Source: a virus. Taken from it: DNA of 23,649 nt. The stretch spans positions 1 to 23,649 of IMG/VR virus record IMGVR_UViG_3300017771_000109; one strand, written 5' to 3'. Each line of letters begins with the position of its first letter. Positions within the stretch are counted from its first letter, which is position 1. The translations under genes and the position numbers were made by a program. Below are positions 3,818-22,111 of the stretch, piece after piece. Under the pieces are notes generated by a model. It did no database searches. It saw nothing but the letters and a program-made list of their open reading frames with translations, and was not told the DNA's origin.

Positions 3818-5074
3818 TTATCTTCCTACCTGTTTTAGATACTTTTCCTTGGTTTCTTCCCATGTTAAATGTATCAAGTCATCATAGTAAAGCGTCTCCA
3901 TGTTTGTCCTTGTTTGGTCAATCAATGATTTAATACGCTTTCTAGCATAACGTTCTCGCCATAATTCTGATAATGCGTCAACGCTACTCTCAAAACTTTT
4001 GACTAGTTTATCTTCAGGTATTTCTTCTCGTAAAAATTCTCTTGTATTATCATATAGTGTGGAAAAATAAATACCTCTACTGTGGTCTGACTTTGTTAAC
4101 TCTTTTGGTATACCTAGTTTACTATATGCAAATGTATGACTTCTATTTCTGTGGTCTCTCTTATATGGTTGACCTGTAGTTTTTGTAGCACTATACCATT
4201 CAAAGTATTTTCTGGTGTGATTTTCCATAATCCACTTTCTTAACATTTGAATAGTAGGTTTTGTTGCTTCGTATGATACACTACCTGCACTATGACCTCT
4301 TTTCTTCCAATGTCTTAAATTTTGATATTGACTAAAACTACCATATAAACTTGTAGTTGTAACACCAACCATTGTATCGCCATATTCTTTTTTCCATGTC
4401 TCTTGTACTTTATCTGATAAACACATCAACGCAAGTAACTTACCACCTGTGTAATTATAACCTAGTGGTTGTAGTGGCACAATCGTACTACCTATCGCCG
4501 TGTGATTAATCATCTTTTTAGTTTTACGTTCTCTATCCCAACCTATGTAACTATCTCTAGGTGTTAAATCTAAAAAGTCACTTGATATACAAATGACACC
4601 TAGATATTTCTTTGTTGGTTTATCTCTTACTATAAAGTTTAGATTACGACCTATATTGTTATTGTTTTTCATTGTAGAGGCAAATGTTCTTATTGCGTTC
4701 CACAATTGTGGTAATTCTGGACTATCTTTTGTATAGATTAGTTCTGGTTGTAACTTCTCAAAATCCATAGGATCCTGAGGTGACCATATATTGTTCTTTA
4801 CATGAGTTAATAGTTTGTCTTTTGATAAATCTACTAATTGACTTTCTTCGCCAAATAAAGTGTTTACTGTCTGAGCAGGATACTTGTTTTTAACTTCACA
4901 CCATTTTTGATATAACGTATATTCTTCTACCGTCATACCAGACACATAACCTAGTTCAGTAATTAAACGTTCTTTAAGTTCGTTTGTATCTATATGTTCG
5001 TAAGGTGTAGGGTTTTCTTGTTGAAAGGTCTCCCATTGCTTTTCTAATAAAGGGTCTATAATTTTTTCTGCCAT
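3818..5074 (-). CDS. DUF4338 / DruA-like protein
   Basis: A protein of 418 residues with no signal peptide or membrane segment. The middle carries a run of features I associate with DUF4338, the domain of DruA from Druantia defence systems: YLGVI, RDSYIGW, an INH-type turn, GYN followed by GGKLLALMCLSD, a W-KEYGD step, GVTTTSLYG, then WKKRGHSAGS (roughly residues 155-265). A basic C-terminal part follows. The biochemical activity of the domain is not established to my knowledge. Start: the ATG at 5074 lies 12 bases after the -10 box, no ribosome site precedes it, and no nearby internal start is available. The message would therefore have an extremely short leader. It has its own promoter inside the end of the upstream glycosyltransferase gene. 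The family call is from memory of the motif pattern; the gene itself is certain. Confidence 0.7.
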   Translation of the reverse strand: MAEKIIDPLLEKQWETFQQENPTPYEHIDTNELKERLITELGYVSGMTVEEYTLYQKWCEVKNKYPAQTVNTLFGEESQLVDLSKDKLLTHVKNNIWSPQDPMDFEKLQPELIYTKDSPELPQLWNAIRTFASTMKNNNNIGRNLNFIVRDKPTKKYLGVICISSDFLDLTPRDSYIGWDRERKTKKMINHTAIGSTIVPLQPLGYNYTGGKLLALMCLSDKVQETWKKEYGDTMVGVTTTSLYGSFSQYQNLRHWKKRGHSAGSVSYEATKPTIQMLRKWIMENHTRKYFEWYSATKTTGQPYKRDHRNRSHTFAYSKLGIPKELTKSDHSRGIYFSTLYDNTREFLREEIPEDKLVKSFESSVDALSELWRERYARKRIKSLIDQTRTNMETLYYDDLIHLTWEETKEKYLKQVGR

Positions 5075-8519: not shown

Positions 8520-9555
8520 AGTCAAATGCCTCCGTATATAAACTTTTCATTAAAGTTTTTAATCTATCTTTATTTAAATTCGTATCTGTTTGTTCTATAT
8601 AGGTATCAAGTAAAGTTGGTGTATCTTCCGTCTTTTCAACTATATCATCATTTACTGTTGAAGCGTCTAAGTCTGAATAATCTTCTATAATTTTTAAATC
8701 ATATACATTAGACTTTTGGTAAATATCATCAACAAATTTATCAAACATAAAGTAGTCTGATTTCTTTTCTACTATAAGTTTAATGTATTTGTTATTACAT
8801 TCATTAAAATCAAAGTTCTTATAATCTGTAGTTTCATCATTGTAATATATTTTATGATGTATTGTTAAAGGGTTTCGTATTGGTGTAAGTTCTCTTGTTT
8901 CTGTATCGTAAATGTGAAAGTGTTTAGGACATTTATAATCTGACCAAGTCATTTCATATTGACAACCAAGGTAAAATATATGACCATCATCTGATTTCTT
9001 ATGAAAGTGACCAGATAATACTGTTTCAAATCTTTTAAACATTTCTTTTTCTACACCTACATCTGAATGGTGTCCAGTATGCATTTCAAAACCTTTAATC
9101 TCTAAATGACCCATAACAATGTCTGCTGTTTCTTGTTCTAACATCATTTTAGTTCTATCGTAGTTTTCAGGTGTTACCCATGGTATAATCAATATATCAT
9201 GTCCTGCAATTGTAATCTTTTGTGGGTCTGAATAAACTTTAAACTGACTTAACAATTCTTTAGGTGCGTTTACTTCATTTGTGTTCTTGTAATAGGTATC
9301 ATGGTTACCTACTATAAAGTGTGTATCATATTTCTTAAATTGACTTACTATCTTATTATTAAAATCAGTAAGTGTTTTAAAGTTTACATACTTACGTCTA
9401 TCTAATATATCACCTAAATGAATAATTGTTTTGATATCGTTTTGTTCTAAGTATGGAAAGAATTGTTTTTGCCAAAACTTATACATGTATTCATGGTAAT
9501 TTGGATTGTCATTACGACATCCAAAATGTGTGTCGTTAACTAGGGCGATTTTCAT
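8512..9555 (-). CDS. 47: gp47 SbcD/Mre11-like nuclease subunit
   Basis: The metallophosphatase-fold nuclease that partners gp46. Metal-binding motifs are in order: DTH at residues 8-10, GDILD at 49-52, GNHD at 83-86, GH at 149-150 and GHFH at 182-185. The C-terminal part would hold the ATPase-binding segment. At 347 aa it matches the T4 protein in size. Its start overlaps the halogenase gene by 20 bases and its end overlaps the oxygenase gene, so the three are probably translated from one message. Confidence 0.95.
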   Translation of the reverse strand: MKIALVNDTHFGCRNDNPNYHEYMYKFWQKQFFPYLEQNDIKTIIHLGDILDRRKYVNFKTLTDFNNKIVSQFKKYDTHFIVGNHDTYYKNTNEVNAPKELLSQFKVYSDPQKITIAGHDILIIPWVTPENYDRTKMMLEQETADIVMGHLEIKGFEMHTGHHSDVGVEKEMFKRFETVLSGHFHKKSDDGHIFYLGCQYEMTWSDYKCPKHFHIYDTETRELTPIRNPLTIHHKIYYNDETTDYKNFDFNECNNKYIKLIVEKKSDYFMFDKFVDDIYQKSNVYDLKIIEDYSDLDASTVNDDIVEKTEDTPTLLDTYIEQTDTNLNKDRLKTLMKSLYTEAFDYE

Positions 9556-11026
9556 ATATGTTGTCTTTTAAATATTGATATAAAGATGGCATAGTATTTA
9601 CTATTTTTTGCCAATCTTGTTTGTTTTGTTCTAAATGATTTGTCCATTCTTCGTTTATCTCTTTTGTATCCGGGTCATACAATAATTGTTCTACATCTAA
9701 TAATGATACTGCCTGCCAATTTAAACCTGTTGCTATATAATGCATACCACCTAATGGGTTAAAATAGTAATCTTGCATTTTGGCATTCATTAAAGATTGT
9801 ACTTCTTTTAAATGTACCAAACTTCTTTTTCTTACATCTTGCCAATATGGTGTATCGTCTCTTAATGATAAGGCATAATGCATGGCAACAAATGTAACAT
9901 ACTCATCAAAAATACTATTACACTCTAAGTTGTGTGTGTCTCTATCCCATTGTGAAAAATCACCTCGTTCTAAATTAGATACTAGTTTCATTATAAACGT
10001 ATGTGTTTGTAAAAGACCTGTGCTCTCTAATGGTTCTATAAATCCGGCAGATAAACCAATTGAACATACATTTTTTATCCACATTTCTTTTTGTCTGCCA
10101 ACTCTCATACGGATGTTTTTAAATTCTAAATCGTCTCTACCTAAGTATTGTTTAAATTGTATTAATGCGTCATCATCATTGATATATTTACTTGAATAAA
10201 CATAACCAGTACCAATTCTTTCCCAACTAGGTATATTCCACACCCAACCATTATCTATCGCCGTACAATTTGTATATGGTTCTAGTTGTTGTTCTTTGTT
10301 TGTGTATGGCATTCTTGTTGCCCATGCACTATCATTAGGTAATATATCATTGTAAGATATAAAATCACCACCAACTTTATTTAATATCATAGATTTAAAA
10401 CCTGTACAGTCTATGACTAAATCACATTCATGTGAATTGATATGTGATACACCATTATCATTTTGTTGTACAAGATTTACATTTTCTAATACATGTTTCA
10501 CACCTCTTGGTAAACAATAATGTTCTTTTAACCATAAACCAAATTTAGTGGCGTCAAAATGATAAGCGGTATCTGTTTTAAAATTGTAGTTAGGTAAAAT
10601 ATCATTAATATCACTTATTTTATTAGCATTAGAAATTAATACATTGGGTGACATGCACTCAGCATAATCACTATTAGGTAAATTTAATAATTGTTTTCTA
10701 AAGTACCATTTGTTTCTTTCTTTATCGTCCCAATAATATGGTCTGCCAAATGGGTAATGAAATGAACCTGCACCTTTTTTATAGAAGTCTGTAAATTTAA
10801 TTGATAACTTATAACTAGCGTCACAGTAAGGCATAAAGTCTTTGTCTTCAATGTTGAGATAATTTAACCAACCATTGATATGACCTAATGTACTTTCACC
10901 TACACCAACTGTAGATACATCTGGACTTTCTATTACAGTTATATTTTTATCAGGAAAGGTACGAATGAGTGTAGCTGCTGACATCCAGCCTGCACTACCA
11001 CCACCCACAACTATAATATTTTTCAT
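9536..11026 (-). CDS. flavin-dependent tryptophan halogenase
   Basis: A 496-residue FADH2-dependent halogenase of the PrnA type. The nucleotide-binding motif GGGSAGW is at residues 8-14. The family signature WxWxIP appears as WVWNIP at 261-266. A lysine in SYKLSIKF (Lys73) is in the place of the catalytic lysine (Lys79 of PrnA), and GFIEPLESTG (328-337) supplies the glutamate and serine of the active site (Glu334, Ser335). With all these present the enzyme should be active, halogenating tryptophan or another indole/aromatic substrate in the host cell. It needs a flavin reductase, and none is encoded here. It overlaps gp55 by four bases upstream and gp47 by 20 bases downstream, so it is expressed with the late sigma factor and the recombination nuclease. 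Halogenase genes are known from some marine T4-like phages. Confidence 0.9.
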   Translation of the reverse strand: MKNIIVVGGGSAGWMSAATLIRTFPDKNITVIESPDVSTVGVGESTLGHINGWLNYLNIEDKDFMPYCDASYKLSIKFTDFYKKGAGSFHYPFGRPYYWDDKERNKWYFRKQLLNLPNSDYAECMSPNVLISNANKISDINDILPNYNFKTDTAYHFDATKFGLWLKEHYCLPRGVKHVLENVNLVQQNDNGVSHINSHECDLVIDCTGFKSMILNKVGGDFISYNDILPNDSAWATRMPYTNKEQQLEPYTNCTAIDNGWVWNIPSWERIGTGYVYSSKYINDDDALIQFKQYLGRDDLEFKNIRMRVGRQKEMWIKNVCSIGLSAGFIEPLESTGLLQTHTFIMKLVSNLERGDFSQWDRDTHNLECNSIFDEYVTFVAMHYALSLRDDTPYWQDVRKRSLVHLKEVQSLMNAKMQDYYFNPLGGMHYIATGLNWQAVSLLDVEQLLYDPDTKEINEEWTNHLEQNKQDWQKIVNTMPSLYQYLKDNIYENRPS

Positions 11027-11580
11027 TGCATAAAGTATTCTAGTTTAGATACTTTTTTCTTCCTTGGTTTCTTTTCTTTTGGTTTATCAGGTGCTATCTC
11101 TACCATATTCTTTCTTAAAAAGTCAGCATATGCGTTTTGATATTCTGTATTATCTGCTTCTTGTGAAACTAACTCATCTAAACCAGACTTCATTATTAGT
11201 TTCTGTTTAATAATTGTTTGTTTCTTTTCTTTTTGGATTCTTCTTATAAATGCGTAGTATATTATTTGTGTAAAGTAAGCAAATGGATTATTTGATTTTG
11301 TTGGATCAAAGTTAGAAACATATTGTAAACAATTTTCTATACCATCAGATATCATATCTTCTTTATAAGTGTAATTAATGAAGTTTGGTCTATATGATAA
11401 ATGATTAGCAATCTTTAGAAAACACTCACCAATGTAATCAGTTATTGGTGGTCTAGGTTTCTTTTTCTTTTCTGCCGCTATACACTTTAATTTATATTCT
11501 TTCATGGCAACTAAAAATTCTTTATTAGAGACATAATGCTCTTTCTTTTTAGGAACCTTGATTGGTTGTGTATTTTTCAT
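11023..11580 (-). CDS. 55: gp55 late-transcription sigma factor
   Basis: The phage sigma factor that directs host RNA polymerase to late promoters. The core sigma-2-like segment around EDMISDGIENCL, then NPFAYFTQIIYYAFIRRI, closely parallels T4 gp55 (MIADGIEAS..., NPHAYITQ..., FVQRIKKE). It is 185 residues long, like T4 gp55. The extreme C-terminus, SKLEYFMQ, resembles the T4 tail SLDFLYE that docks on the sliding clamp gp45. The flanking sequence is strongly basic (KKPRKKK). The start has AAGGA seven bases upstream and follows a near-consensus sigma70 promoter, fitting early or middle expression before late genes are switched on. It is the first gene of a six-gene operon. Confidence 0.93.
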   Translation of the reverse strand: MKNTQPIKVPKKKEHYVSNKEFLVAMKEYKLKCIAAEKKKKPRPPITDYIGECFLKIANHLSYRPNFINYTYKEDMISDGIENCLQYVSNFDPTKSNNPFAYFTQIIYYAFIRRIQKEKKQTIIKQKLIMKSGLDELVSQEADNTEYQNAYADFLRKNMVEIAPDKPKEKKPRKKKVSKLEYFMQ

Positions 11581-11608: not shown

Positions 11609-11637
11609 ATTATATCACAATCTAGTAAAAAAGTCAA
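11609..11637 (-). promoter_or_regulatory. sigma70-type promoter of gp55 operon
   Basis: TTGACT (11632-11637), a 17-base spacer ending in TGTGA, then TATAAT (11609-11614) on the minus strand: consensus -10, one mismatch at -35, and an extended -10 TG. It lies 28 bases before the gp55 start. The bases GCTTGAC around the -35 box are shared with other promoters in the window. Confidence 0.85.
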
Positions 11638-11653
11638 GCTGTTATACTAGATT
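11619..11653. repeat. 9-bp inverted repeat flanking the gp55 -35 box
   Basis: AATCTAGTA (11619-11627) and TACTAGATT (11645-11653) are perfect inverted copies separated by 17 bases, with the -35 box between them. The placement is that of an operator for a dimeric regulator. It could also form an RNA or cruciform stem, but the left arm lies inside the promoter spacer. Confidence 0.5.
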
Positions 11654-11694: not shown

Positions 11695-11723
11695 TTGACA
11701 ATTTGAACAAAATGGTATATAAT
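11695..11723 (+). promoter_or_regulatory. perfect consensus sigma70 promoter facing plus strand
   Basis: TTGACA (11695-11700), 17 bases, then TATAAT (11718-11723): both hexamers and the spacer are exact consensus. The start would be near 11729-11731. It shares GCTTGACAATTTGA with the minus-strand DUF4338 promoter. No plus-strand gene follows. The RNA would begin with CCUCCUU-containing sequence and run antisense to the Sm-like gene and uvsW. The 185-base gap 11581-11765 otherwise holds only the gp55 promoter, its inverted repeat and a tandem TTACCTTAG repeat at about 11751-11770. Confidence 0.65.
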
Positions 11724-11765
11724 AGGCATGTGCCTCCTTCAGAGATAGATTACCTTAGAGTTACC

Positions 11766-12239
11766 TTAGTGTACTGTCTTCTTACCCATTAAGTAGTCTT
11801 GTGTCTCGTCATACTCAACATCGCCCAATTGGTCTAACAATTTACCAAAAGCAGCGGCTCTGTGTTTCTTTATTTCTTCAGGCGATTGTCTTAGTTTTCC
11901 ACTACGAATATTCATATAATACTCAGAAATATCATCTGTAGGAACTGCAAAACATAAAATATTATTTTTATGTATAGATATTACTTTATCTTTAGACTTG
12001 AATAACCAAGGTTTAATTGTCATCTTTTCTTCCATCATATAGTCTCCCAAAAAGTCATGTGGGTGTAACTGTATAATGTAAGGTTCTTCTAATCTTATAA
12101 AATCTGAGTTATCTTGTACCATTACTATGGCAACAAGTTGTTCACCTGAATTTAACTTTACTATTCTAGGTGTTGGTATCTTCTTAATAGTCTCTTTAGG
12201 GTTAGTAGTCACTTTACTTCCTTTCTTTGGAGTTCTCAT
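11766..12239 (-). CDS. small protein with Sm-like (Lsm) N-terminal segment
   Basis: A 157-residue protein. Residues 25-60 (PRIVKLNSGEQLVAIVMVQD, then IRLEEPYII) have the pattern of an Sm1-type beta-barrel: a strand, a sharp SGE turn, a long strand, an acidic break, then a strand ending in E-x-P. The rest is a second beta-rich part with FAVPTDD and a charged helical tail. A basic, Thr/Lys-rich leader precedes the barrel. The gene overlaps uvsW by four bases and ends the recombination operon. In marine T4-like genomes a conserved small gene often lies between uvsW and gp55. RNA binding like Hfq is a speculation from fold alone. Confidence 0.7.
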   Translation of the reverse strand: MRTPKKGSKVTTNPKETIKKIPTPRIVKLNSGEQLVAIVMVQDNSDFIRLEEPYIIQLHPHDFLGDYMMEEKMTIKPWLFKSKDKVISIHKNNILCFAVPTDDISEYYMNIRSGKLRQSPEEIKKHRAAAFGKLLDQLGDVEYDETQDYLMGKKTVH

Positions 12240-13699
12240 ATCAAGTCCACCGTGTGTATATCATAATCAAACTGTTGTTCATTGTAAATATTTATCCTTT
12301 CCAAAAAGTGCTGGATTGTAAAGTTCTTCTTTTCTTTATAAGTAAAATCGTCAGATATATCATACACTTTAGCAGTATCTTTCTGCTCACCTAATCTTAA
12401 ACCACGACCTATAGATTGTAAAACTCTTATAGGTGATTTAGTAGGGCTACTAAAAATAATGTTGTGTAAGTTACGAATATTGATACCAGTGCTATACGTC
12501 CCGTAAGAAGCGACAATAATCGTGTTGTCCAACTTTTCTGTGATTGCTCTAATTCTTTCTCTATCATTTGTTTCTGTTCCGCCGTAAACAAAAAATACTT
12601 TACGGTCTTTTGCTTTTGCCTTTATTTGGTCATGTAAAGGTTTTCCATGTTTTTCTACATACTGAAATAGAACTAGAGTATTACCTTTTTGGTCGATTGC
12701 CAGATTAGTTAAAAACTTATTTCTTCTTTCGTGTGTTACTATATAGTCAATCTCGTCTTGGAACTTAGCATTTTTTATTTGCATACATTCTTCTTTTGGA
12801 TATTTTAAGACAATACATTCTATTTTTAAATCCGCTAATTGTTTCTTATCTATTAATTCTTTTGTAGTTGTAACATAGTGAACAGGTCCAAAGAGACCTT
12901 CTAATACTAACTTATGTACTTTACTATCATCTAGTGTACCAGTTGTACCTATTCTAAACTTGGCATTAATGCAAGCTGCCATAATCTTTTGTAATTCTTT
13001 TGATTTATATAAGTGTGCTTCATCACCTATTACACAATCAAACTGTTCAAAGTATTTCTTATCAAATGTTGCCAGAGATTGCCATGTAGATACAACTATC
13101 TTCTTATCTTCATCTATCTCATAACCATAATACTTTCTTTGTACATTTGTTTCTGCGTCATACCCATATGATATAAAGTCTTTATACATTTGTTCTACTA
13201 GTGATGTAGTTGGTACTACTAATAATATCTTTCCATCACTTTCTCTTATCATTCGTATAATACAATAGATGATTAGAGACTTACCTGAAGCAGTTGGCGA
13301 TACTAATACAGCACGTTTATTATTGATTGCATGTTGAACCGCTCCTATTTGATATTCTCTTGGTTTGATGTTAGGTATAGATAAACCATCAATATACTTG
13401 GAAAAAAGATTGGTAGGATGGTTCACACCAATGGTTTCAGGTGCTTCGTGTGTGATTGTATGTGCGTTCCGGCGACAAAATTCGTTTATATACGGTAGTA
13501 ACCCATAGTAAATTTTACCAGTTGCTTTACTAAACATTCTTATTTTACCGTCCCAACGTCTTGCTCTTACAGACGGCATAAAGCTGGCACCTGGTACTTG
13601 AAATGTAAAAAAATCAGATAAAGACTGTAACAGTCCTAAATCTTCACTTGTACACTTAATATAGGATTCGTTAAACTTTGTTATTTTTAATTCGCTCAT
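12236..13699 (-). CDS. uvsW: UvsW RNA-DNA and DNA branch-migration helicase
   Basis: A superfamily-2 helicase that, in T4, unwinds R-loops at origins, drives branch migration and shifts replication to the recombination-dependent mode. Visible motifs are REYQ (residues 114-117), Walker A SPTASGKS (134-141), VPTTSL (162-167), DEAH (226-229), GTTGTL (251-256), YSTGINI (402-408) and the arginine-finger motif QSIGRGLR (428-435). The N-terminal ~100 residues correspond to the small DNA-binding domain of UvsW (RRWDGKIRMF). At 487 aa it is near the T4 length of 503. It overlaps the preceding glycosyltransferase-like gene by 29 bases. Confidence 0.95.
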   Translation of the reverse strand: MSELKITKFNESYIKCTSEDLGLLQSLSDFFTFQVPGASFMPSVRARRWDGKIRMFSKATGKIYYGLLPYINEFCRRNAHTITHEAPETIGVNHPTNLFSKYIDGLSIPNIKPREYQIGAVQHAINNKRAVLVSPTASGKSLIIYCIIRMIRESDGKILLVVPTTSLVEQMYKDFISYGYDAETNVQRKYYGYEIDEDKKIVVSTWQSLATFDKKYFEQFDCVIGDEAHLYKSKELQKIMAACINAKFRIGTTGTLDDSKVHKLVLEGLFGPVHYVTTTKELIDKKQLADLKIECIVLKYPKEECMQIKNAKFQDEIDYIVTHERRNKFLTNLAIDQKGNTLVLFQYVEKHGKPLHDQIKAKAKDRKVFFVYGGTETNDRERIRAITEKLDNTIIVASYGTYSTGINIRNLHNIIFSSPTKSPIRVLQSIGRGLRLGEQKDTAKVYDISDDFTYKEKKNFTIQHFLERINIYNEQQFDYDIHTVDLI

Positions 13700-22103: not shown

Positions 22104-22111
22104 TATTTATA
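22104..22111 (-). promoter_or_regulatory. consensus late promoter for gp20
   Basis: TATAAATA followed by G on the minus strand, identical to the T4 late-promoter consensus and read by gp55-bearing polymerase. It lies 30 bases before the GTG start of the portal gene and forms part of the 3' arm of a hairpin. Confidence 0.8.

Follow-up and report, generated by a model that had tools for sequence, protein, structure and literature searches.

What could a perfect host-type promoter be doing where it points away from the gene on one side and runs against the genes on the other? The question is raised by a stretch of 23,649 nucleotides of viral DNA (IMG/VR record IMGVR_UViG_3300017771_000109, positions 1 to 23,649), referred to here as the window. 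The window comes from a Pelagibacter phage near HTVC008M (Kyanoviridae), with ~96% identity to HTVC008M over the region around the promoter. On the minus strand it carries gp55, the late-transcription sigma factor (11023-11580; phrog_234, E 4.7e-64), a Sm/LSm-like gene of the PF16243 family (T4-GC_139; 11766-12239) and the uvsW helicase gene (12236-13699; phrog_16). The promoter lies in the 185-bp gap between the LSm-like gene and gp55. It faces away from gp55 and, as the earlier note had read it, is antisense to the LSm-like gene and then to uvsW. No tRNA or known structured RNA was found in the window, and the antisense element matched no curated Rfam family. Elsewhere in the neighbourhood, a tryptophan halogenase gene (9536-11026, minus strand) separates gp55 from gp47, a place occupied in HTVC008M by just a 129-bp ORF. 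NTAAATA motifs resembling late promoters occur on the minus strand at 22110, 19328, 18646, 15964 and 15693, directly upstream of gp20, gp21, gp22 and two other genes of the structural region.

The promoter (11695-11723, plus strand) reads TTGACA-N17-TATAAT, with the -35 hexamer at 11695-11700 and the -10 hexamer at 11718-11723, matching the consensus at 12 of 12 hexamer positions with a spacer of 17. It is the sole exact consensus site in the window. The chance expectation is 0.16 sites per window (spacer 15-19), and 13 of 100 shuffled windows contained such a site, in agreement with the earlier note, which had called an exact match rare by chance. That note had also compared the site with a genuine phage promoter on the strength of a shared sequence, GCTTGACAATTTGA. 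This sequence has one other exact copy in the window (5117-5104, minus strand), which sits in a promoter-like site (5115-5087, minus strand) directly ahead of a gene starting at 5074. Promoter-like sites of the GCTTGACT...TGTGATATAAT type directly precede genes in HTVC008M, and the comparison is therefore sound.

Neither hexamer varies within the close clade, and both are conserved across the family. The antisense promoter was found between the LSm-like stop codon and gp55 in nearly all of ~280 distinct loci, with gp55 identity falling to ~50%. In a collection of 234 distinct gp55-upstream regions, mostly from IMG/VR, it matched at least 10 of 12 hexamer positions in 223 regions and at least 11 of 12 in 185, with TGT at the start in 211; these counts include a small number of chance sites, taken in regions whose length limit left out the true one. 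Most loci that lack the promoter near gp55 carry the element further upstream; in ten of them it lies ~0.3-1 kb from gp55 (L024, L025, L041, L054, L056, L059, L074, L080, L084 and L088). No antisense element was found in L036, L089 or the methylophage Melnitz-3. When the search was begun from the LSm gene rather than from gp55, the element was present in 44 of 44 distinct loci. Conservation of both hexamers, proposed beforehand as a check by sequence, thus holds strongly and well beyond close relatives. Among eight whole genomes scanned, the element was the top-scoring such site in HTVC008M, Mosig, S-BM3, P-SSM2, S-CRM01 and ACG-2014f and ranked second in P-SSM4, placing it first or second in seven of the eight.

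The hexamers and a T(-1)G(+1)T(+2) triplet are kept among relatives while the spacers have diverged. In an alignment of 142 diverged elements anchored on T(-1)G(+1), the consensus was a -35 of TTGACA/T, a spacer of 16-17 and a -10 of TATAAT, TACAAT, TAGAAT or TACACT, followed by the TGT, TT at +8/+9 and a purine run from +11 to +18. The site combines both hexamers, at a spacing within the 16-18 nt of sigma-70 promoters, with an occurrence beyond chance and family-wide conservation, and this conservation rules out a chance promoter. Judged from sequence, it is close to certain that marine T4-like phages share a conserved antisense promoter. The literature searched contained no description of the element, which is provisionally new.

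We placed the predicted transcription start at G11730, within the conserved TGT, using the usual 6-nt discriminator after the -10 hexamer together with conservation. Applied to another promoter (TTGACA/TATAAT...TGT), in P-SSM2, this rule of six bases between the -10 and the G of TGT puts the start at 142835, 2 nt before 142837, where a strong Rfam match to the manA RNA begins (RF01745, 181.6 bits; L306:2837-3034, equal to P-SSM2 142837-143034). The predicted RNA of the window begins GUGCCUCCUUCAG. A purine-rich stretch, CAGAGATAGAT, follows at +11 to +21 (11740-11750), comparable to the purine tract of relatives, in which the purine content of +11 to +18 is 83% versus 54% at control promoters. 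Short coding sequences were considered on both strands and rejected. Plus-strand frames past the start close soon and lack conservation. An 18-residue minus-strand ORF behind AAGGAGG differs among close relatives by two changes, one synonymous and the other not, and AAGGAGG is absent from other lineages, so that this ORF is not what is conserved.

The predicted start is the centre of a palindrome, AGGCA-TG-TGCCT (11724-11735), with its left arm at 11724-11728 and its right arm at 11731-11735. Across the elements the left arm typically occupies -6 to -2, immediately after the -10 hexamer, the start G lies in or beside the loop, and the right arm spans about +3 to +9. The arms differ in sequence from phage to phage, as in AACGG-TGT-CCGTT (Mosig), AACCTT-GTG-GAGGTT (S-BM3) and, in contigs, GGACT-ATGT-AGTCC and ACCC-ATGT-GGGT. 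Among 131 distinct 18-mers, 90 have a stem of four or more Watson-Crick pairs, versus a mean of 12 and a maximum of 23 in shuffled sets. With DNA parameters, the mean folding energy was -2.33 kcal/mol for pelagiphage-type and -1.50 kcal/mol for cyanophage-type elements, compared to -0.31 for 749 other promoter-like sites in the same genomes. Covariation of the arms is clear in pelagiphage-type loci, whereas the cyanophage-type palindrome is conserved largely as sequence. Similar hairpins were noted at other promoters. ACG-2014f (KJ019142.1) has TTGCCA-N17-TATAAT/TATACT-ACCTTTGTN promoters at 37649, 147191, 169712 and 211355, akin to the gp55-side element and some with a small start-site hairpin; the copy at 211355 is followed within ~40 nt by a strong terminator, as if a short RNA were made. 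P-SSM4 (NC_006884.2) has at 51125 a second, stronger copy of promoter plus start-site hairpin, in gene direction and ahead of small hypothetical ORFs.

In which molecule would the palindrome fold? The left arm begins 0-2 nt after the -10 hexamer, too early for a sigma-70 start and ahead of every plausible one, so that the RNA would carry the right arm only. A palindrome within the RNA was rejected on this ground, and a terminator on either strand was rejected for want of a T run after the hairpin. The computed folding energies of the two strands are nearly equal, and the strand argument rests instead on the types of imperfect pair. Counted over unique arm pairs on the plus (non-template) strand, there were 40 G.T pairs and 2 A.C pairs, a bias that suggests folding of the strand sharing its sequence with the RNA. 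From its position and pair types we infer that the palindrome folds in single-stranded non-template DNA and not in RNA. Because promoter and start-site palindrome are kept together across hundreds of lineages, marine T4-like phages probably make a deliberate antisense transcript from this promoter.

The element is tied to the gene that it opposes. A LSm-like gene is present at this position in 208 of 209 loci, with the predicted start mostly 8-43 nt past its stop codon (mode 20-21 nt; 36 nt in the window). The cis-antisense arrangement, as judged by promoter position only, holds in the same 208 of 209 loci and in all 44 found by starting from LSm. Note that the last profile round missed six proteins, five of which are recognisable as LSm-like from their sequence or from an earlier round; the sixth is g49 of the freshwater phage S-CRM01, to which the element is antisense in that genome. 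The identity of the LSm-like gene is indicated by Pfam Sm_like matches in relatives and by an AlphaFold model (pLDDT 86) that aligns with 3by7, a solved Sm/LSm-like protein, at a TM score of ~0.88 on the target. The element stays near the LSm stop codon even where extra genes separate it from gp55. Conservation at fourfold synonymous sites rises to 0.835 in the last 10 LSm codons, versus ~0.53-0.75 over most of the gene, in a comparison whose pairs are not independent. TAGCT is enriched before the LSm stop, being in part the stop codon itself. A motif resembling late promoters, ATAAATA (12289-12295, minus strand), lies ~50 nt before LSm in the end of uvsW, within the codons for RINI. Of 59 distinct pelagiphage-type loci, 55 have it no more than 150 nt upstream of LSm, usually at 50-60 nt, versus 0 of 114 cyanophage-type loci. 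In the pelagiphage-type loci it falls mostly within the conserved UvsW peptide RINI, with ATA-AAT chosen far more often than overall codon use predicts.

Three readings fit these findings: an antisense brake on LSm and uvsW, control of gp55 timing or insulation, and an R-loop primer. The earlier note had already offered the brake and a replication primer. We prefer the brake, tentatively and with somewhat less than even confidence, because the element stays with the LSm 3' end though genes intervene toward gp55. The ATAAATA motif ahead of pelagiphage-type LSm lends further support, as does the expression from a late promoter of T4 uvsW, whose product unwinds origin R-loops (PMC3016281). At the sequence level the reading draws on the promoter, the start-site palindrome, the conserved position, the antisense direction and the late-type motif. 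Transcription itself, its length and effect, and a role for the palindrome are inferences beyond these. In this scheme, a strong early promoter for host sigma-70 RNA polymerase would point back from the LSm/gp55 junction and start transcription in the palindrome loop. Early in infection, transcription from G11730 would run antisense through the LSm-like gene into uvsW, and head-on collision together with RNA pairing would hold both genes low, while gp55 is produced from its own divergent promoter. Once gp55 redirects RNA polymerase to late promoters, the antisense promoter, dependent on sigma-70, would fall silent and LSm and uvsW would come on. In the initiating complex the palindrome may act in the exposed single strand of non-template DNA and slow rewinding of the bubble, which would favour a productive start or a short RNA:DNA hybrid. 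Several points weigh against the brake. The reach of the antisense RNA to uvsW (~0.5 kb) is assumed, the stretch antisense to LSm showed essentially no intrinsic terminator and no conserved RNA fold, the S-CRM01 element opposes g49, and cyanophage-type loci lack ATAAATA before LSm. In addition, a brake alone needs no start-site palindrome, which counts against it.

A second reading, the leading novel alternative, makes the locus an R-loop replication origin. The antisense transcript would stay hybridised near its start and its 3' end would prime leading-strand synthesis, as at T4 oriF, with the palindrome of the displaced strand keeping the two DNA strands from closing again over the 5' end of the RNA. 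We consider this unlikely. Most genomes have a single element, near uvsW, and the excess of G.T over A.C pairs (40 vs 2) points to folding of the non-template strand. The first 20 nt, which are purine-rich, favour an RNA:DNA hybrid (mean -1.72 kcal versus 0.03 for controls and -0.51 for strong promoters), but positions +21 to +70, with 71% A+T, disfavour one (5.53 versus 0.53), all computed from nearest-neighbour values. A strand-composition switch is present at some T4 origins. No consistent switch in GC skew was seen at the element in 8 genomes, where skew is confounded by gene strand, and Melnitz-3 does without the element. In T4, a promoter transcript held in an R-loop serves oriF and oriG, and an early promoter apparently serves oriE, but the origins have no common motif (PMC3016281). 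The resemblance to oriF and oriG lies in the placing of a promoter close to uvsW/uvsY in a T4-type phage and in an initial transcript that favours an RNA:DNA hybrid; the T4 origins, however, combine MotA middle promoters with an A+T-rich unwinding element, whereas the antisense element, known from sequence, combines a sigma-70 consensus with a start-site palindrome (PMC3016281). A fuller version, which we regard as rather improbable, would amount to a new promoter architecture: the non-template strand, folded during initiation, would lock the bubble open and anchor a short R-loop that primes early Kyanoviridae replication, with the R-loop helicase gene uvsW lying under the antisense transcript.

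Equally unlikely in our estimate is the third reading, in which the target is gp55 itself: polymerase directed backwards would block read-through from the uvsW operon or compete with an overlapping gp55 promoter, keeping the appearance of late sigma on time. Nearly all loci do have the element between LSm and gp55. In the window, the gp55 sense promoter is TTGACT-N17-TATAAT with TGTGA before the -10 (11609-11637, minus strand), divergent from the antisense promoter. TTGTCAA serves both promoters of cyanophage-type loci as a common -35 region in 90% of sequences, and up to ~70% also have a -10 matching at least 5/6 at a spacing of 16-18. In this back-to-back arrangement the two promoters should exclude each other. 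The two -35 elements of pelagiphage-type loci are separate, however (58 bp in the window clade), some loci have up to ~1 kb and extra genes between element and gp55, and the sense promoter is less well conserved than the antisense promoter. The gp55 -35 (11637-11632) is also flanked by a perfect 9-bp inverted repeat, AATCTAGTA / TACTAGATT (11619-11627 and 11645-11653), which is operator- or hairpin-like and invariant in the close clade.

A discrete, trans-acting small RNA, with the LSm protein encoded next to it as a possible partner, appears improbable. The Sm/LSm fold of the adjacent gene's product, the conserved UU at +8/+9, the purine tract and the TAGCT enrichment speak for it. But the RNA sequence differs between lineages, nothing in Rfam matches, the start is mostly only 20-40 nt from LSm, and TAGCT is partly the LSm stop codon; a version ended by an intrinsic terminator was rejected, essentially none being present in the LSm antisense stretch. 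Very improbable is a phage-specific operator, with the palindrome as a dimeric repressor site over the start. Variable palindromes do overlap the start, but their loops range from 3 to 7, in place of a fixed half-site spacing, and neither this nor the G.T/A.C strand bias is expected of a double-stranded operator. Finally, an anti-Shine-Dalgarno RNA masking ribosome-binding sites, a reading prompted by the earlier note, is extremely improbable and is rejected as a general function, since the CCUCCUU that the window clade carries at +4 to +10 (CCTCCTT, 11733-11739) is simply the right arm of the palindrome plus the following bases and, among the 142 diverged elements, just 4 have it in their initial 16 nt, all from two neighbouring lineages.

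Returning to the antisense brake, phage antisense promoters that hold back regulators are familiar from lambda pAQ and pO/oop. The element resembles these as an opposite-strand promoter for host sigma next to or in genes of temporal control, but it is directed across LSm/uvsW and away from gp55, the late regulator, has a start-site palindrome and is conserved family-wide. Cyanophage S-PM2 is reported to have an antisense RNA, CfrI, in its psbA region (Millard 2010, cited in PMC5931967). An antisense RNA from the element would share with CfrI its setting in a marine T4-like phage, whereas the element lies at the LSm/gp55 junction and is near-universal. Bacterial bidirectional promoters (PMC10268837, PMC12825309) also have close divergent starts, like the overlapping -35 of cyanophage-type loci; here, in contrast, it is the antisense half that is better conserved, and in pelagiphage-type loci it stands apart from the sense half.

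Kyanoviridae are abundant marine phages in which the timing of early-to-late transcription and the sites of replication start are little known. A near-universal element at one junction, between the late-sigma gene and uvsW/LSm, provides experiments with a fixed target in HTVC008M, P-SSM2 and other cultured phages. If the palindrome does act in the melted strand, it would be a new regulatory feature for bacterial-type promoters.
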